A stretch of DNA of 41,189 nucleotides from an uncultured Verrucomicrobiales bacterium (GCA_937928425.1 CALFVL010000047.1:1-41189), one strand, 5' to 3'; counted from the first letter of the stretch, positions 30,600 through 39,109 are shown. Made by a program: numbers and translations. Notes: generated by a model from the letters alone, not told the origin.

Positions 30600-30817
30600 C
30601 TGTTGGTATCATATTTATCAACCTTATCAGAAGTATCATCCCCTCCGCCAGAGGCGGTCGGTTTGACGCTTACCCCTCAAAAACTGGGAGCCACTTCTTC
30701 CAGTCAACTGGGTCGCCCTCCACCCCGAAGGCCGCAGCATCAGGCAAGCAGCCTGACCTGAAGTATCATACCTTCATAAAAATAATGAAAGCATCATCCC
30801 GCAAGGGGGAGCTGTAG
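30600..30817. repeat. Non-coding stretch with a recurring AAGYATCATCCC motif
   Basis: Three near copies in direct orientation: AAGTATCATCCC at 30631, AAGTATCATACC at 30761 and AAGCATCATCCC at 30789. Two are followed by short hairpins (CCGCC/GGCGG and CCC/GGG around GCAA). It also holds one copy (30658-30673) of a 16-bp sequence that recurs beyond the IS3 at 32177-32192. A plus-strand frame across it shows no recognisable protein. It ends at the IS3 left end. Confidence 0.5.
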
Positions 30818-30852: not shown

Positions 30853-31704
30853 TTAGGCTACGTTTTTGCATAGGTCTTGGTTTCTTTGATTTGGTGTCTG
30901 GTAATTGAGGGCTTGGTGAGGCCGTGTGTGATTGTAGTGGTCGATAAATTTTGCCAGCGCATGGCGGGCCTCTGCGAGGGAGTTGAAGCGATTGCACCAA
31001 CAAAATTCTTCTTTAAAGGTTTTGATGAAGCGTTCGCAAAGTCCATTTTGTTTGGGAGTATATGGCGTGATGTATTCTTGTTTAAGTCCGTAATCTTTGA
31101 CCACTGAGCGGAAGCTGCGTGAGCCAAAGACAAGGCCGTTGTCATGACGTAGCAGCATGCCTTCAGGGGCGTTGTGAAGGGTTCCGAAGCGAGCAAGTAG
31201 GGCTTCTTCCAAAGCTCGTTCGACAGTTTTTGATTTGCCGGTGAGTTCGATGGCATGGCCTAGAACTTCGCGTGTGCAGCAGTCGATCACTGGTGCAAAG
31301 ACGCACCATCCATCTTCACCACAGAAGATATTCCCGAGGTCGGTGGCCCAGCGTTCGTTGGGTGTTTCGGTGGCCGATTTATTGCTCTCTACGCGTGGTC
31401 GGCTTCCGGTTTTACGCTTGGGCAGGGTCCAGCCTTTGAGCTTCATGATGCGGTGGACTTTCTTCCGATTTACCAAAATACCTTTGATGAACCGAAGACG
31501 GCTCCAAGTGCCTCGAACACCTAAAAAGGGTTCTGCCTCGTGAAGCGCTTTAATTTGGTTGGCTAGCTCCTCGTCGATGACGGGTGGCTTAGGATCTCTG
31601 GGTTCGTAGTAAGCGGTGGACCGTGGAAGATCGAACCAGTTGCAAAGCTTAGTCAGAGAGGGTGCTTTTCCCGACGTGAGAAGATTGGATCGAACGGCTT
31701 TCAT
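30853..31704 (-). CDS. IS3-family transposase OrfB (DDE integrase domain)
   Basis: 283 residues with an HTH_21 region (FLGVRGTWSRLRFIKGILVNRKKVHRIMK) and an rve integrase core. The DD35E triad is Asp122 (WATDLGNIF), Asp188 (LRHDNGLVF) and Glu224 (NGLCERFIKTF), with exactly 35 residues between the last two. Its ATG overlaps the orfA stop in ATGA, in the -1 frame, so it can be made by coupling or by frameshift fusion as in the IS3 family. Confidence 0.95.
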   Translation of the reverse strand: MKAVRSNLLTSGKAPSLTKLCNWFDLPRSTAYYEPRDPKPPVIDEELANQIKALHEAEPFLGVRGTWSRLRFIKGILVNRKKVHRIMKLKGWTLPKRKTGSRPRVESNKSATETPNERWATDLGNIFCGEDGWCVFAPVIDCCTREVLGHAIELTGKSKTVERALEEALLARFGTLHNAPEGMLLRHDNGLVFGSRSFRSVVKDYGLKQEYITPYTPKQNGLCERFIKTFKEEFCWCNRFNSLAEARHALAKFIDHYNHTRPHQALNYQTPNQRNQDLCKNVA

Positions 31705-32024
31705 GAGTTCACGTCGGGGTAGGGCTTTCCCTGGATGTCACAGGCTATTTTGTAGGCTTCCATCTGCATCGTTAGGTCCCCGATCTTGGCGAGGAGATCC
31801 TTTTCCTTGGCTTTGTGTTTCGCCTCAGCATCACGTGGGTGGGAGCGTAAAGCTTCGGTTCCCATGTCGATAAAATCGGACTTCCACTGCTCAATCTCAC
31901 CGATGGTGAGATCATGGGTTCGAGCGACTTCAGAGGCTGTCGTTTTGCCTTTGATGATTTCGGTCACGATTTCAGCTTTTCGCCTAGCCGTCCAACGTTT
32001 GATATCTTTGGATTCTTCACTCAT
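31701..32024 (-). CDS. IS3-family transposase OrfA (helix-turn-helix)
   Basis: 107 residues. An HTH_Tnp_1-type region (KRWTARRKAEIVTEIIKGKTTASEVARTHDLTIGEIEQWK) binds the IS ends, followed by a leucine-rich coiled coil (LLAKIGDLTMQMEAYKIA). The stop overlaps the orfB start by 4 bp. Confidence 0.92.
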   Translation of the reverse strand: MSEESKDIKRWTARRKAEIVTEIIKGKTTASEVARTHDLTIGEIEQWKSDFIDMGTEALRSHPRDAEAKHKAKEKDLLAKIGDLTMQMEAYKIACDIQGKPYPDVNS

Positions 32025-32164: not shown

Positions 32165-32297
32165 GCTCCAGAGCACTCGGTTTGACGCTTACGAGAAGCA
32201 CTGTCACATTGTGACTCTTGTGGATATATTCGCTCACGCGAATACTTTACGCCGCAAGCGGCGGGGAATCAGACCCAAAGAGATTGAATCAACCTAC
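32165..32297. other. Intergenic stretch with three short palindromes and a 16-bp repeat
   Basis: There is no credible gene. It contains TCGGTTTGACGCTTAC at 32177-32192 (also at 30658-30673), GTCACA-T-TGTGAC, TATTCGC-TCAC-GCGAATA and CGCCG-CAAG-CGGCG in succession. These look like a degenerate repeat or mobile-element remnant rather than a terminator, since no T-run follows. Confidence 0.45.
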
Positions 32298-32321
32298 TAA
32301 AAACGGCCATGACCGCTTTTA
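32298..32321 (-). terminator. Terminator of the island operon
   Basis: Minus-strand reading: AAAAGCGG, a 6-nt loop, CCGTTTTT, then AG. It starts 24 bp after the stop of the last operon gene. The A-tract before the stem makes it potentially bidirectional. Confidence 0.65.
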
Positions 32322-32344
32322 TTGGATTTCCTGAGAAAATTTAT

Positions 32345-33208
32345 CTAATAAGCGAACCTCTTCTTACCCCAATAGAGTAAAGACCCAATCAAAAGAGCAA
32401 TCGCGGCGATGATCCGCCACGAGAACTTGAATACCTCTTTCGTGGGGGCTGTGCTTTCTTCGTTTTGGGAGCTAGGCTGCCTCAAAATCTTCTTTTTCCG
32501 AATAGAAGTGATCATTGCTGGGACGTTTTGATCTGTGAGAGTAAAACTCTCACAACCTGGCCAGTTGGAGATCAACCAATTAGCCAAATGATCAACCTTC
32601 TCCTCATGAGGGATGACACCAGATTCATAAGGATCAAGAGGGTTATATCCAGAATCCATTTTCTTCAATCTCGAAACAATAATCGAATAAGCAAATTTAG
32701 ATACATCATCAGCATATGAACGAGTATATTCACCTTCTTCTTTAGTTACTCTCCCATCCCGAAAAAGAGTATTAAAAAATATTGGAATGAGCTCTCTCCC
32801 ATTGTTTTTTGAGAAACTTGATGCGAGACAAAACATAAGGAAGAACCCGCGTGATTCCTTCTCATCATAAAGGAGTTCTATTATCTCCGACTGGTCAGAT
32901 ATAAGATCTTTATTATTTGAGATAGCACCTACAATAAGACTTCCTGTTGAAGCTCTATTCCCCCTAATAGGATCTTTATCTTCATTAAATAATAAAGTCG
33001 CAAATCCTCTGGAGAGTTCTGCGTCTGAAAATCCTTGCAAAATTTGTTCCTCCTCTGGAGTGAGCTTATATGCCCTCAGGGAAAATTCCCGAGGGGTTTC
33101 AATCACATCAAGAATCGCCTCAGCCACTTCGTTATCACGACCCGACGGAGTAAACGCAAATGAAGCACTTAATAGAGAGAAGCTAATTACCAAAATTATA
33201 AAACCCAT
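32345..33208 (-). CDS. Unrecognised protein with signal peptide and C-terminal membrane anchor
   Basis: 287 residues from the ATG at 33208 (MGFIILVISFSLLSASFAFT, a good signal peptide). A GTG at 33235 would add nine residues. The start lies inside the preceding gene, with a 26-bp overlap. The middle is mixed and mostly helical (LTPEEEQILQGFSDAELSRG, SFSKNNGRELIPIFFNTLF, TRSYADDVSKFAYSIIVSRL). The end has WRIIAAIALLIGSLLYWGKKRFAY, a TM plus basic tail, so the protein is probably a type I anchored extracytoplasmic protein. I recognise no family. It is AT-richer than the backbone. Position makes it a partner of the peptidase-like protein. Confidence 0.65.
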   Translation of the reverse strand: MGFIILVISFSLLSASFAFTPSGRDNEVAEAILDVIETPREFSLRAYKLTPEEEQILQGFSDAELSRGFATLLFNEDKDPIRGNRASTGSLIVGAISNNKDLISDQSEIIELLYDEKESRGFFLMFCLASSFSKNNGRELIPIFFNTLFRDGRVTKEEGEYTRSYADDVSKFAYSIIVSRLKKMDSGYNPLDPYESGVIPHEEKVDHLANWLISNWPGCESFTLTDQNVPAMITSIRKKKILRQPSSQNEESTAPTKEVFKFSWRIIAAIALLIGSLLYWGKKRFAY

Positions 33209-35036
33209 AATAATCAATGTTATTATCTGCTCCACCTAAACCATTTACATTGTTCATATGATTCCTGATAAACTGACCACCTCTTCCGTCTAATATTTGC
33301 TCCACAAACACCCACGTAGCTTGAGTAACATTACAGGCCTGGGTTGTGTAAACAAATTCCCGGTGTTGAAAATTCTCAATATAATCCCTACCCGTATCGC
33401 AAGCGTTATAGAAAAATGTTCTATAGCCAAGATGCTGAGGAATTTCATTTCCGGGGGCAGCGACAATCAAACGACCTGCATAATGAAAAAAGTTTGGATT
33501 TACTCCTTGGCGATTTAAAACCCCTCCATTTCCAGCGCCAGAATTAGGAAATCTTATACCCACGTCAGGGGCGGGAGTGACATTATCCGGATGCACAAAG
33601 TTCTCCAAGGGAACATAGTTTATGACATTTTCTTGAATTTCTGGAGAAACCACCTCAGGAGGGACGGCGGCTTCGAGCAACAAATACGCCCATCCTTCGA
33701 GCGCAACTCGGGTGCTAGCCTGATCGCCTTCATCTCCAGGCCCTGTGGTAGGAAAAGAGCCATCTGGATTCTGCATTATCATTTCACCTGGGATTCCATG
33801 AAAACTCGTAGGAATATCAGTAAAACCGACCCCATAATTTAAGAAGTCGTCGATCACTTTAATTACATTTATCTCGAAGTTAGGACCAAACCCAAAATTT
33901 GAGTGCCCATCAAAAATCACAACTCTTTCGCTTGACTGAAGTCCTCGATTTAACGGATCTGGCGCTTCCATAATCTCAATAGCATAAATCTTCTCGGGGA
34001 GTTCTTCCGCGTCAGATTGCTCTTCCCCTTCTTCGCGGAGTGCAACCCCTTTAACTCCCCATATATTTCCAGAATTAAATACATCGTAAGGTGGGTTAGC
34101 GCCAGCGAGTTGAGCGTCTAAACGATTTTGTAGTTGCTGAATAAAAAAGGCCTGACTGTCAAAATCTGTCCCAATACCAAAAATAGTGGTGATGTCCATT
34201 GGTTGAAATACCCAATAGTCCAGAGATCCTGCAGCATCTGGGTCCATGTCGCCAGTAATTGATACCTCTACAAACGGAATAAAAGGTGGAATAACTAATG
34301 GTAATCCGTTAATCATGGAGACTTCAGAAGGGAGAGTGCTAGGGGGAGGAACCGGATCAGTCTGAAGTTGAAGTAAGTTAAAAATTGCTCCTACATTCTG
34401 CCCAGTTATATCTGTCAATTTAATTTTTGTCGTTGTCTTGTTACCTCGAAAAGCACTAATGCTTGGAACACCTCCACCGACAGGATTTCCAAATTGGTCG
34501 GAAACAATATTAAACCCTGCATCCAATCTCATCCTTACAGGAAGTTCTGAGGCGCCATCTTGAATCACTGTAATCTCAAGTTCAAACTGAGCAAGTGCAG
34601 CGCCTCCCCCACCTTGCCCCATATTTTGCCCTGGCGCGGGATTTGGATTCGGATTCGGGCCGGGGCCTTCGGTGTCGAAAACAAAAGGAGACGTGTTGTA
34701 AGTCAGGACTTCTTCAAGGTTCGTCCATCCATCGCCATCGAAATCATCGGTATCTGGATTTGTCGTAGACACATCGGTGTAAACTAACCGCAGATACATC
34801 TCTTCACTGACTTTTTCGAAAGCCATTCTAAGGGTCTGCCCCTGACCAAATCGAATGTCTGGAAGGAAATCCCAAGTCGCCAAGTCGTCTGTCGAGGCTT
34901 GGATGAAGTAAGAGCGACCGTGGACTCCGTGCCACTCAAGTTGATAAATGTTTCCTGAAAGCTGGGAGCAACGGATATCGCTCTGAGCATTTACTTTCAG
35001 GAGTAAAAGCAGAAAAAGGCTAAGAAATTTTTTCAT
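33183..35036 (-). CDS. Secreted multidomain protein with Ca-binding loop and clan CD-like His/Cys dyad
   Basis: 617 residues. Signal peptide MKKFLSLFLLLLLKVNAQ. Residues 30-90 form a beta domain seen in verrucomicrobial secreted proteins (HGRSYFIQASTDDLATWDF). At 98-109 is an EF-hand/TSP3-like loop, DFDGDGWTNLEE, then a Pro/Asn linker and a Gly stretch. The large remainder is beta-rich. Near the C-terminus RVVIFDGHSNFGFG (His378) and RTFFYNACDTGRDYIE (Cys546) occur in the order and local context of the clan CD dyad (caspase, gingipain, CHAT: GHG/H-G then A-C after a hydrophobic strand). The 168-residue gap includes an insertion. The dyad reading is inference. It is the third gene of the island operon. 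Confidence 0.7.
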   Translation of the reverse strand: MKKFLSLFLLLLLKVNAQSDIRCSQLSGNIYQLEWHGVHGRSYFIQASTDDLATWDFLPDIRFGQGQTLRMAFEKVSEEMYLRLVYTDVSTTNPDTDDFDGDGWTNLEEVLTYNTSPFVFDTEGPGPNPNPNPAPGQNMGQGGGGAALAQFELEITVIQDGASELPVRMRLDAGFNIVSDQFGNPVGGGVPSISAFRGNKTTTKIKLTDITGQNVGAIFNLLQLQTDPVPPPSTLPSEVSMINGLPLVIPPFIPFVEVSITGDMDPDAAGSLDYWVFQPMDITTIFGIGTDFDSQAFFIQQLQNRLDAQLAGANPPYDVFNSGNIWGVKGVALREEGEEQSDAEELPEKIYAIEIMEAPDPLNRGLQSSERVVIFDGHSNFGFGPNFEINVIKVIDDFLNYGVGFTDIPTSFHGIPGEMIMQNPDGSFPTTGPGDEGDQASTRVALEGWAYLLLEAAVPPEVVSPEIQENVINYVPLENFVHPDNVTPAPDVGIRFPNSGAGNGGVLNRQGVNPNFFHYAGRLIVAAPGNEIPQHLGYRTFFYNACDTGRDYIENFQHREFVYTTQACNVTQATWVFVEQILDGRGGQFIRNHMNNVNGLGGADNNIDYYGFYNFGN

Positions 35037-35056
35037 TTGATTTTAGGGTGTTATTT

Positions 35057-35815
35057 CTACTCGCTACCTCTCATTTCCTTGGGTTTGTCCTCCTGCCTCC
35101 AAAATCTCAAGGTAACCGTTTTTTTCTGACGGGCTTCTTTTTCCTTGGCTGCTTCTTTCTCTCCTTCGGCTTCAACTTTTGCTTGGTGAACTTCTTTGAT
35201 CTTATCCTTTTCAAGGGCATAGTGTTCATGCAGGGCTTCCATAAAATGGATGTCATCGGGCTTGAGAGCACCCCCTTTCCCCTCCTGATAGTAAGCTCCA
35301 CCTTCGCTCAAACTTGGAAGATTTGTTGGGAGAGCAGGTGATTCGTCAGTCACTTGCGCGCTCGAAGGCATGATCATCATTGTATATTTCGTGTCACCTT
35401 GAACGAAAGTCGGACTAGCGCCAAGCGCCTCCCATGAGGTGATATTGGTCCACGCAAGAGCTTCGGTTGCGACCTCTCCACTTAGCGATTTAAACTGAAG
35501 CAAGGTATAAGTGTGATCATAAACCGTCGCTGAAACAAAGTAGCTCCGACGCTTCAAAAACGCGGAAACAGAATGAACAGGTTTCACAGCATCACTCGAG
35601 TCTTTCTTGCTCTCCAAATCCTTGAGAAGATCTTCATCAGGAGTGCTCAACCTCTCAATTTTCAAGTGGGTGTTTCCCTGCACGACGGACGATTCATCCA
35701 GAACAATGCTGGATTCTAAAACAGCATTTGTTTCAGGTGTTACTTTGATGCTTTCTTCCCCCTGAGCCCAGATAACTGATGAAAAGACCCCTAAGAGACA
35801 AGACTGTATTTTCAT
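35057..35815 (-). CDS. Unrecognised secreted protein with charged C-terminal helix
   Basis: 252 residues, signal peptide MKIQSCLLGVFSSVIWAQ. The middle contains a compact segment (FLKRRSYFVSATVYDHTYTLLQFKS, then WTNITSWEALGASPTFVQG). Residues about 190-235 form a highly charged Lys/Glu helix (HYALEKDKIKEVHQAKVEAEGEKEAAKEKEARQKK). Ser/Thr residues are frequent near the N-terminus. No family is recognised. It lies 49 bp after the CotH gene and 20 bp before the dyad protein, all on the minus strand. A role as kinase substrate is a positional guess only. Confidence 0.62.
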   Translation of the reverse strand: MKIQSCLLGVFSSVIWAQGEESIKVTPETNAVLESSIVLDESSVVQGNTHLKIERLSTPDEDLLKDLESKKDSSDAVKPVHSVSAFLKRRSYFVSATVYDHTYTLLQFKSLSGEVATEALAWTNITSWEALGASPTFVQGDTKYTMMIMPSSAQVTDESPALPTNLPSLSEGGAYYQEGKGGALKPDDIHFMEALHEHYALEKDKIKEVHQAKVEAEGEKEAAKEKEARQKKTVTLRFWRQEDKPKEMRGSE

Positions 35816-35864
35816 GAAAGAAACGTACGATTTGAATCAGTCGTTTCACCAGATTTAAAATGAA

Positions 35865-37805
35865 CTATTTATTTGAACGGGGTGAAACCATGAGAGCACT
35901 CCACTTCCTCTCAGAATAAACTCGCGCCATCACCTTTTCTCCCTCGTTGATTCGCAACGGGTTTCGGTAGGCTGGCCCTAGAATCTTACCAGTCCATGCC
36001 TCACGTGGATCTGTTCCATCCGTAGTGAAAATAATGATCCCTGTTTCATTTGGGTTCTCAAGATAGATCGTTTTTTCGTTCTTTTTGATCATCCGTGAGG
36101 GAGGACGGCCAAGCTTGGGAGGAAGGATTTTTGGAAAGACCCCATATTTCTGAAAGTCCTCAATGAGATCCATCGAACGCCTTGGAAAGAATTTCGTGAA
36201 AAGCCAACTGTCAGGAGAAGTCAATTTTTGCCACTTGACATTGTGAACTAAAAATGGGGAGTCCTTGTTGATAGCATCTCCCCATCGTGCGCCTTCGAGG
36301 AGCAGCAGAGGCTCGATTTCATTGAGGAGACGACGGTAGCGAAGAGAGGCTTGCGTAGGGCTTAAAAGACCACCTAAAGAGACGTGCTGATAAAGACGGT
36401 CGGAAAAGCGAAGGCGGAATTCAGGATGACTTGTCAGCGCTCGATACCAAAGACCGGGGCCAAAGCCATCAAAGAGCATTTTGGTGTCATTCACTTGATC
36501 AAAGCCCAAAGCATCTTTGGCGTGTCGATTGCGGAGGCTATCCCATCTCCGAAAAAATCCTGTTTCAGCATCCCACCCTACAAAGCGGAAATAGGGATTT
36601 TCGCTTTTCTCTCCGATCAGGAAAAAATTTCGATCCGGCCAATCCACATTGGCCGCATAAACATTGACGATGAAATGATCGATGAAGGCATCGACATCGA
36701 GGTAACGATCCAACTCCGCAAAGGATTTTTTCGTATTGGTGAGCTGAGTGGTTATGAACGTTTTCGCTTCATCAAGGCGCGTTTTTTCACCACTTTGCAA
36801 CTCGCGGGCATTGTAAATAATGAGATCGTCAGACTTCTTCTCAAGGTGGGAAGAAGCAAAGTGTTCATCAGGTCTTTCGGTAAGAGCATAGACACCCCAA
36901 TAACGGCCATTAAGGAAAAGATGCACCCACCTCTGCCTTGCTGATAGATTCCCCATCAAGCGTTGGGTTTGCGCCGCCCAAGCGTCATTCACATATCTTG
37001 CATTGTTCCTCCAAGTGTGGCTGTAAACGGCCCAAGAATCATGAGTGGGGTTTCGGAGAATGAGATTTTCAAACTCTTCCGGCCCCTTTTCTTTGAAAAG
37101 ATCTCCAGAAAACTTCCCTGCTCCAAATTCCTTTGCGAAACGGAGGCGAAAATTCTTCTTTCGGGATTGCGTGCGACTTCCCGCTCCTTGAATTCTGAGA
37201 CCGCAGCTCACTTGGAGAGAACCTTTTTCGTTGGGATCAATCCACTCCACAGATGCCGAGAGTTCGGATGCTCTTCCCCTCTTTTTAGGATCAATGTAAA
37301 TCCCCTCTTCACCAAAAAGACCCTCGGCATCCGTCAGAACGGAAACCGTTGGCACTCGATGAAAAACGTCCTTAGCCTCCTGCATTGCCGTTTTAGTTTC
37401 GAAGACCTCGGGATTCATTCCTTGGTCAATTTCAGGAGACCATGAAGCGACTGATTTCTGATTTAGAATATCGTCTACAAAAAGATAAGTGTGTGTCTCA
37501 ATCGGGCTTGGCTCCAATGCTTCTTTGATAGCCATCGCTCTTAGAATTGTCGTCTGAGCGACTTCCACTGTGGCTTTCGATTCGGGGGCGACAAGAACCC
37601 CGTTCGTCTTCGAGGGCGTTGTTCCATCAGCTGTATAAATGATACTGGCTTCTGGAGTTTCCGTGGAAAGAACAACCTCAAAAGGCTCAGTGTAATAGCC
37701 TCGCTCGATGGAAAAACTAACCGACTCGACCTCTTGTTTTTTAGGAGCGGCAGAAAGCGGAAAAGGAGTGATAGCGAAAAGTAAAAAGACCAATCTAAAA
37801 GACAT
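35865..37805 (-). CDS. Secreted CotH-family kinase with chitobiase-type beta domains
   Basis: 646 residues from the ATG at 37805 (MSFRLVFLLFAITPFPLSA signal peptide). Residues about 25-110 are a chitobiase/hexosaminidase C-terminal-like domain (GYYTEPFEVVLSTETPEASIIYTADGTTPS). About 190-500 match CotH: LRIQGAGSRTQSRKKNFRLRF, HLFLNGRYWGVYALTERPDE, then the metal region FRFVGWDAETGF. A second chitobiase-type domain (GIIIFTTDGTDPREAWTG) ends the protein. CotH proteins of spore-formers are atypical kinases that phosphorylate CotB/CotG. Here the enzyme would act outside the cytoplasm. It is the first gene of the island operon, next to the ISAs1 left end. Confidence 0.85.
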   Translation of the reverse strand: MSFRLVFLLFAITPFPLSAAPKKQEVESVSFSIERGYYTEPFEVVLSTETPEASIIYTADGTTPSKTNGVLVAPESKATVEVAQTTILRAMAIKEALEPSPIETHTYLFVDDILNQKSVASWSPEIDQGMNPEVFETKTAMQEAKDVFHRVPTVSVLTDAEGLFGEEGIYIDPKKRGRASELSASVEWIDPNEKGSLQVSCGLRIQGAGSRTQSRKKNFRLRFAKEFGAGKFSGDLFKEKGPEEFENLILRNPTHDSWAVYSHTWRNNARYVNDAWAAQTQRLMGNLSARQRWVHLFLNGRYWGVYALTERPDEHFASSHLEKKSDDLIIYNARELQSGEKTRLDEAKTFITTQLTNTKKSFAELDRYLDVDAFIDHFIVNVYAANVDWPDRNFFLIGEKSENPYFRFVGWDAETGFFRRWDSLRNRHAKDALGFDQVNDTKMLFDGFGPGLWYRALTSHPEFRLRFSDRLYQHVSLGGLLSPTQASLRYRRLLNEIEPLLLLEGARWGDAINKDSPFLVHNVKWQKLTSPDSWLFTKFFPRRSMDLIEDFQKYGVFPKILPPKLGRPPSRMIKKNEKTIYLENPNETGIIIFTTDGTDPREAWTGKILGPAYRNPLRINEGEKVMARVYSERKWSALMVSPRSNK

Positions 37806-37864: not shown

Positions 37865-39109
37865 CAGGGTCATCCAGCTAGGGAGAGAAGTTTGTTGCGA
37901 TAGGTCTCATTTACCATCGCTTTCATTTGTTTCATTGGAAGCGATTTTTTGTTCGTGGTCTCGGCTTTTAGGAGGTTGTGAGCCACTCGTCGTAAGATCG
38001 CGAAGTTCTTCACTGCATTGGCTAATCTCACTTGTGAGTGATCTTCTCGATAGAGTGTATCCAAGACCCAGTGACAGCTATTCTCAATGCTCCAATGCTG
38101 GCGGATCAATACGCTAAATTCTTTTGCCGAACTAGCGCGACTACTAATGTAAAAGCGCATCTGTTTCGTCGTCTTCTTATCTGCCAACGAGTAGCTTTCG
38201 CTCTCAATCATGATTAACGTGGTCAAATCTTTCCAACGTTTCCGGATCGATGGGATCATCCAGCTAAGCTCTTGGGTCACTGCTGTTCGACGCGTCGTAA
38301 CGCGCCCATTTGCTTTTTCAACTTGCTCATGAGATTCCCAGGATAGGCCGCTTTGCTTCACGCTTTGGCTTGCGGCGAAGTGGAATTGATCGACGATTTC
38401 CTTGTGGAGAGAGCCTTGGTTTCCTTTGACAGCCATGAGGTAGTCGGCTTTGCGCTCACGGATGTTCGCGGCAATTGCAGTCTGAGTTCCCATTGCATCA
38501 ACCGAGATCATATGACCTTCGATTTTGAGTTGCTCCAAGAGTTTAGGGATCGCTGGGATTTCGTTACTTTTGCGCAGCACAAATTCCACCCCAAGAGTGA
38601 GGCCCGTTTCTGCAGCATAAGCACTGAGGCAGTGCTGTTGTTCGAGATTGGTCTTACCACTTCCCCGGATCGTTTTTCCGTCGACCGCGATGAGTTGCTT
38701 GGCAAGCTCGGGGTGAACATCTTTGAGATGAGCGATGAGGCATTGGCTAAACTCCTTCGGATCGAGCAATGAAAAGAGATTGATCATCGTTTGTGTGACC
38801 GGAATCCCATTGGGGAGGCTAACCCATTTCTTGAGCCATTTTTGATGGATTTGACCGAACTCAATAATTCCTGTGAACGACTGAACGCCACAAACCAAGG
38901 CGCTTACGGCGAGAAAAATCATCTCACCGAAGTGGTGTTTCTTATTTCCACCGGTGCGAGGGTCTTCGATGATAACGAAGTGTTCAAAACCAATCGGGAA
39001 ACCGCCAGAGTAGTCAATCTTTGCTGGATTTACAGGCATCCAGCAAGTGTTTCAGCTTCTTGGAAACGTACAAGCCTTATGTCAACCTTTCCCTAGCTGG
39101 ATGGCCCTG
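37865..39109 (-). mobile_element. ISAs1-family insertion sequence
   Basis: About 1.25 kb with inverted ends CAGGG(T/C)CATCCAGCTAGGGA: 37865-37884 on the left and 39090-39109 on the right (reverse complement), with one mismatch. It encodes a single complete transposase. The transposase stop codon lies within the left repeat. No identical flanking duplication is seen. Confidence 0.9.
37870..39039 (-). CDS. ISAs1-family DDE transposase
   Basis: 389 residues. N-terminal DDE_Tnp_1-associated region (DPRTGGNKKHHFGEMIFLAVSALVCG), then the catalytic core with Asp120 (LIAVDGKTIRGSG), Asp181 (MISVDAMGTQ) and Glu319 (HWSIENSCHWVLD), and the family motif YLMAVKGNQ. The stop is within the terminal inverted repeat, so the last residues (LSLAG) are encoded by the IS end. 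It appears intact. Confidence 0.95.
   Translation of the reverse strand: MPVNPAKIDYSGGFPIGFEHFVIIEDPRTGGNKKHHFGEMIFLAVSALVCGVQSFTGIIEFGQIHQKWLKKWVSLPNGIPVTQTMINLFSLLDPKEFSQCLIAHLKDVHPELAKQLIAVDGKTIRGSGKTNLEQQHCLSAYAAETGLTLGVEFVLRKSNEIPAIPKLLEQLKIEGHMISVDAMGTQTAIAANIRERKADYLMAVKGNQGSLHKEIVDQFHFAASQSVKQSGLSWESHEQVEKANGRVTTRRTAVTQELSWMIPSIRKRWKDLTTLIMIESESYSLADKKTTKQMRFYISSRASSAKEFSVLIRQHWSIENSCHWVLDTLYREDHSQVRLANAVKNFAILRRVAHNLLKAETTNKKSLPMKQMKAMVNETYRNKLLSLAG

Follow-up and report, generated by a model that had tools for sequence, protein, structure and literature searches.

A candidate toxin–immunity cassette with a conserved gene pair in an uncultured Verrucomicrobiales bacterium

Why should a bacterium keep a CotH-type protein, two exported proteins without a known family and a membrane-anchored protein in a single operon? 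The question is raised by a stretch of DNA of 41,189 nucleotides, referred to here as the window (GCA_937928425.1 CALFVL010000047.1:1-41189), which is contig C47 of the 2.57 Mb genome G000 of an uncultured Verrucomicrobiales bacterium. It carries four co-directional minus-strand open reading frames, P1 to P4, with gaps of 49 and 20 nt and then a 26-nt overlap (53 nt between P3 and P4 if P4 starts at the GTG at 33235). An original prediction, made from the sequence alone, proposed a signalling or effector module in which an atypical kinase, a possible substrate, a caspase-like protein and a membrane anchor act together. By comparing the locus with related genomes we arrived at a different division, in which P2, P3 and P4 probably form a polymorphic toxin–immunity cassette. 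The parts of the operon are as follows.

35865–37805, minus strand: P1, CotH-type protein of 646 amino acids (ATG at 37805)
35057–35815, minus strand: P2, exported protein of 252 amino acids, constant cassette component, without a Pfam or NCBIfam family, next to P3N in relatives
33183–35036, minus strand: P3, exported toxin candidate of 617 amino acids, consisting of signal peptide, P3N, linker and P3C
34677–34976, minus strand: P3N, N-terminal module (P3 residues 21–120), predicted immunoglobulin (Ig)/FN3-like sandwich with a DxDGD calcium-binding-type repeat
33186–34019, minus strand: P3C, His/Cys domain (P3 residues 340–617), supported by alignments of 4 and 7 relatives
32345–33208, minus strand: P4, candidate immunity protein (ATG start; GTG at 33235 as a possible alternative)

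A constant gene pair with exchangeable cargo

A search of 195 genomes of the family revealed that P3 is bipartite, the first approximately 125 residues (P3N) being widespread and the C-terminal part (P3C) being present in few genomes. In many of these genomes P3N heads proteins whose lengths vary widely. Homologues of P2 were detected in 40 of the 195 family genomes and in 19 of 388 genomes across the phylum, and 57 P2 loci were retrieved with their surroundings. The next gene on the same strand carries P3N in 52 of them, across the phylum. The five exceptions come down to gene calling, a frameshift or the threshold: at L115, L118 and L132 the 195-genome search gave a P3N match at the expected place, at L110 the P2 gene is split by a frameshift and then followed by P3N, and at L163 the P3N score is slightly below the threshold. 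Since nearly all loci were gathered by P2 similarity alone, the pairing is not a selection effect. P2 and P3N thus form a conserved pair, which is the constant part of the cassette, and this constancy, together with the signal peptides, suggests a role in export or display.

Neither P2, P3 nor P4 gave a Pfam or NCBIfam match above the cut-off. With AlphaFold2, residues 21–120 of P3 were modelled at a predicted local distance difference test score (pLDDT) of about 95, with FN3/Ig-like matches at high probability but at E > 0.001, and the module is predicted to be an Ig/FN3-like sandwich combined with a calcium-binding-type repeat. The model of P2 is confident (pLDDT 83) and has a beta domain and then a 44-residue helix. 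No fold is assigned to P2, because a confident match was lacking in the PDB (none at a Foldseek E value of 0.001 or below; best Z of 3.5 on a second look).

What follows the pair differs strongly between loci. P3N occurs in two forms, either as a stand-alone protein of approximately 160–250 amino acids with a giant exported protein encoded behind it, or as the front part of a protein with a long C-terminus. The giants that were tested are RHS proteins (L103, L105, L109, L118, L122, L124), apart from that of L113, in which the sole match is Ntox50, located at the end of the protein. Among the fused forms, P3N is part of a 1975-amino-acid protein with a pretoxin HINT domain and an AHH nuclease at L130, whereas the fused C-terminus is an Amidase_3 domain at L125 and a reprolysin-like (metallopeptidase-like) domain at L119. 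An Amidase_2 gene adjoins the P3N gene on its downstream side at L106. At this last locus (L106:123-7165, G126:C260) the order is CotH-P2-P3N, then the Amidase_2 gene and three more small genes; the amidase reading frame has no signal peptide, and a frameshift may have separated it from the P3N protein. A Pfam scan found no RHS/YD repeats in the P3 protein of the window, while they are present in sister cassettes. The cassette layout recurs across Verrucomicrobiota with differing toxin tips, and the P3C domain of the window is one more type of cargo.

Relatives of P3C also occur as displaced tips. In genome G587 (L186) a full toxin and its partner gene are followed by a P3C fragment of 72 amino acids, which shares 58% identity with the final 81 residues of the G171 toxin and does not match the resident toxin significantly. 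The gene after this foreign tip is 56% identical to the G171 partner, as compared to 30% for the resident G587 partner, and next comes a further fragment, with 78% identity to a stretch inside the resident toxin. In G010 (L185), two partner genes that resemble immunity genes come after a P3C domain that has neither signal peptide nor P3N. From the arrangements in G587 and G010 it follows, therefore, that toxin tips and partners move together, which is a signature of polymorphic toxins. The G587 region as a whole (L186:9311-10674, G587:C48) is an array of displaced P3C fragments and immunity-like genes that continues up to the contig end.

These observations bear on an alternative in which P3C is a housekeeping peptidase that trims the surface proteins of its own cell, with P4 as a membrane partner or regulator and P2 as a chaperone. 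Such self-directed maturation would agree with the signal peptides on all parts and with the predicted anchoring of P4 in the inner membrane, and secreted clan CD enzymes such as clostripains have been implicated in surface-protein processing (PMC3482391). It is at odds, however, with the presence of nucleases (HINT/AHH and Ntox50), RHS giants and cell-wall amidases among the P2-P3N cargo, with partner genes that occur in tandem and with matched displaced tips in relatives, with P4 copies that lack a toxin, and with the sporadic occurrence of P3C, which is unlike that of a housekeeping enzyme. We therefore regard this alternative as unlikely.

The His/Cys domain and its downstream partners

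A profile search detected P3C in 8 of 260 family genomes, with the closest named relatives in genomes of Verrucomicrobiaceae and Verrucomicrobia. The other P3C sequences are only 19–34% identical to that of the window. Seven sequences share an invariant pattern, G-H378-x-N380-x-G-x-G, H518 and C546, in which a His block and then a Cys block each come after a hydrophobic strand, H378 and C546 being the invariant residues of the two blocks. Judged from this arrangement of motifs, a resemblance of P3C to the clan CD peptidases is plausible, and a cysteine peptidase is our best guess for its function, a judgement that we hold with modest preference. The original prediction had called P3 clan CD-like, which holds as a resemblance of motifs (GHxNxG and the Cys motif in seven relatives). 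No Pfam match and no significant match among PDB sequences were obtained for P3C. The comparison with the Peptidase_C25 profile (hhalign) gave a probability of 0.3%, which is not significant, with the best overlap on the catalytic-His (GHG) block of C25, and the P3C part of the AlphaFold2 model of P3, calculated from a 20-row alignment, is mostly below a pLDDT of 50.

It is also conceivable that P3C uses its His and Cys residues for some other kind of enzyme activity, such as that of a transferase or an amidase, which would otherwise be compatible with the toxin–immunity interpretation. The lack of a profile match to any peptidase family, including the non-significant C25 overlap even though it lies on the His block, and the presence of an invariant H518 in addition to H378 and C546 point in this direction. 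As read from the sequences, the motifs instead show the arrangement and surroundings of the clan CD pattern (strand-GHxNxG, further on strand-NxCxxG), and we consider a non-peptidase the less likely option, though one to be taken seriously. A serine-hydrolase reading of GHSNFG was rejected on the ground that Ser is replaced by Ala in two relatives.

A 970-amino-acid protein with PKD-like repeats, encoded on a Syntrophobacterales contig (L141:118-3030, LVAA01000009.1), contains the P3C motifs GHSNFG and SCNS, and on these motifs the domain may extend beyond Verrucomicrobiota. Elsewhere in the genome of the window there is a single Peptidase_C25 (gingipain-like) protein (L203, G000:C134:2409-3560).

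P4 begins with a signal-peptide-like stretch, and a transmembrane segment lies in its C-terminal part (residues 268–286 in the numbering from the GTG). This architecture is common behind fused cargo: of 21 such loci, 14 have a next gene whose product combines a signal-peptide-like start with a transmembrane segment at the C-terminus, compared to 16 among 141 background genes of about the same size (Fisher p = 1.4e-7; both features called by hydropathy rules). Such partners vary between cassettes and are often tandem paralogues (L129, L131, L137, L116, L185). They fit a role as immunity proteins against toxins with an extracytoplasmic site of action.

The partners of P3C itself belong to several families. 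Homologues of P4 were found in only four of the 195 family genomes, that of the window included and one of them weak, and in two of the others they sit immediately after P3C. Over all P3C loci, a gene of the P4 family lies directly behind P3C in the window, G101, G013 and G591. A second partner family takes this place in G171 (two genes), G010 (two genes) and G587, and a third in G603. All 13 P3C partners examined have a WP[GS] motif, often as K-x-x-W-P-G and present in P4 as NWPG, as compared to 15 of 159 background proteins and one of 16 partners of other cargoes. Joining of the partner families by hhalign was attempted and rejected, the alignment being confined to the NWPG motif. For P4 no Pfam match above the cut-off was obtained, which includes Imm57, Imm36 and the other listed immunity families, and the same holds for two other P3C partners. 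Genome G013 has further P4 copies, at least two of which have no toxin upstream. Two of the G013 paralogues (L100:1390-2268 and L035:1321-2064) are almost identical over the C-terminal approximately 90 residues and differ in their N-terminal parts, which suggests recombination among immunity genes. By its context P4 is a candidate immunity protein that behaves as if matched to the toxin, rather than the generic anchor that had been proposed.

The observations behind the toxin–immunity interpretation of P2-P3-P4 are the P2-P3N pairing, the exchange of cargo, the architecture of the downstream genes, and the matched displaced tip and immunity modules in relatives, and the suggestion of an effector module in the original prediction finds support here. 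Several points weigh against it. The window has one copy of the cassette and no displaced tips. P3C is rare, has no Pfam match and gave a predicted fold that cannot be interpreted. In 7 of the 21 fused-cargo loci the following gene is outside the signal peptide and transmembrane pattern, and P4 and the second partner family align over the NWPG motif only (hhalign probability 36%). Our searches found no description of an enzymatic activity for the candidate toxin or of protection by P4. Furthermore, nothing that could account for passage of the outer membrane, such as a component of a known contact-dependent or contractile export system, was recognised beside the cassette in the window.

If the toxin–immunity interpretation is correct, P2 and P3N would be exported by the Sec system and would presumably serve in surface display, export or delivery. 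The exchangeable effector would be P3C, most probably a cysteine peptidase whose site of action is extracytoplasmic, either the periplasm or the surface of rival bacterial cells. P4 would serve as the immunity protein matched to P3C and would block it from a periplasmic position secured by the C-terminal transmembrane anchor.

The CotH gene and the surroundings of the operon

The assignment of P1 to the CotH proteins, as originally proposed, is secured by a Pfam match (PF08757, 3.4e-30), and the protein also has CHB_HEX_C_1 and Fn3_assoc domains. The DW-(K/R)N and WD-x-E motifs are conserved in four compact CotH proteins, and a comparison of P1 with solved structures gave no match at E values up to 0.01. 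A CotH gene lies directly upstream of P2 in only 2 of the 57 P2 loci, namely the window and L106 of the congener G126. The two CotH proteins are 44% identical, and the L106 gene is the best match of P1 in G126. CotH paralogues are abundant in the genus, with 7 matches in G000 and 25 in the congener G140. CotH-domain proteins are strongly expanded in the genomes of G000, G126 and G140, and many of them are longer than 1000 amino acids.

These numbers bear on a second alternative, developed from the original prediction. In this alternative the genes form an extracytoplasmic unit for signalling or effector action, and CotH, by phosphorylating P2 or P3, would control a caspase-like protease that is anchored through P4. 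The four co-directional genes with short gaps and one terminator would suit such a unit, as would the recurrence of the CotH-P2-P3N order in one congener. However, P2 and P3N are found without CotH in the other loci, and the abundance of CotH paralogues in the genus also argues against it; we consider this alternative very improbable. A four-gene core unit that includes CotH was rejected in view of the 2 out of 57 loci, and P2 as a kinase substrate paired with CotH does not stand either, since P2 instead partners P3N throughout the phylum, nearly always without CotH. With respect to the expectation that homologues of the four genes occur together, P2-P3-P4 recur, so it does not hold that the genes are never found together, and CotH-P2-P3N recurs once; all four were seen together only in the window. 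Because no other P2 locus examined has CotH upstream, the gene is a genus-level accessory or a mere neighbour. As an accessory, the kinase could possibly modify exported proteins.

In the most far-reaching reading, P2 and P3N might be a dedicated and hitherto undescribed front end by which toxins of many kinds (RHS nucleases, wall amidases, peptidases) reach or cross the verrucomicrobial outer membrane, with the window encoding an unrecognised cysteine-peptidase toxin and its membrane-anchored periplasmic inhibitor, possibly licensed by CotH. This complete picture is tentative, and we would put its chances at somewhat less than even.

The operon is flanked by the following elements.

32298–32321, minus strand: intrinsic-terminator-like hairpin and T tract at the operon end, judged by folding energy against shuffles
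30853–32024, minus strand: IS3-type transposase pair (OrfA 31701–32024, OrfB 30853–31704; Pfam HTH_Tnp_1, rve, rve_3)
37865–39109, minus strand: insertion sequence with a DDE_Tnp_1 transposase gene (37870–39039) and 23-bp terminal inverted repeats

The hairpin has a folding energy of -12.6 kcal/mol (z -3.9), which was equalled by none of 200 shuffles, and a simple terminator scan gave no call for it. The G+C content is 42–47% over 32–38 kb as compared to about 51% in the rest of the window. The inverted repeats of the DDE_Tnp_1 element (37865–37887 and 39087–39109) are 91% complementary, and its end is about 60 bp upstream of P1. An exact 16-bp direct repeat, TCGGTTTGACGCTTAC, at 30658–30673 and 32177–32192 brackets the IS3-type element. 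Thus, the open reading frames, hairpin, base composition and insertion sequences bear out the four genes with their spacings, the terminator, the AT-richer composition and the mobile elements on both sides that had been noted beforehand, as do the N-termini of P1 to P4 for the signal peptides, all four of which have a signal-peptide-like hydrophobic stretch. A composite transposon was rejected as an explanation, the two flanking insertion sequences being of different type, and so was phage or plasmid cargo, with P3C relatives absent from the viral contigs searched and P2 matches absent from the plasmids searched.

Comparison with known systems

Polymorphic toxin systems, including caspase-type toxins and RHS toxins with HINT, AHH or Ntox tips, are well described, and the survey of Zhang et al. 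(2012, PMC3482391) lists verrucomicrobial toxin domains. Its Table 1 of export routes, leader domains and signature genes contains no leader pair that resembles P2/P3N, and among the papers searched there was no description of a P2/P3N-type system and none that joins 'Verrucomicrobiota' with 'polymorphic toxin'. As a conserved two-component front end present in several verrucomicrobial families, the pair would help to trace toxins and immunity proteins through whole genomes of the phylum, and it would open the export route of its RHS-type toxins to direct testing.

Some P2-P3N cassettes carry known toxin domains and in this respect are like the described polymorphic systems. They differ in that their constant part is the P2 + P3N pair, that the RHS protein is often a separate third gene, and that partners with a signal peptide and a C-terminal transmembrane segment recur. 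A parallel to the window is formed by the Tox-Caspase toxins with Imm36 or Imm57 (PMC3482391), since P3C is likewise proposed as a C-terminal, caspase-like His/Cys domain of an exported toxin that is accompanied by an immunity gene, whereas P3C and P4 have no Pfam match and P4 has a signal peptide and a C-terminal membrane anchor. With Peptidase_C25 (gingipain) P3C shares its best-scoring, non-significant profile stretch, on the GHG catalytic-His block, but the distance between His and Cys in P3C is 168 residues, with inserts. P1 resembles the CotH spore-coat-type kinases by its Pfam match and differs from them in being exported and in having chitobiase-like and Fn3-associated domains, and the host phylum is not known to sporulate. 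The polymorphic toxin principle is known, whereas an unlisted candidate toxin and immunity family (P3C and P4) and the leader pair in front of it would be new.

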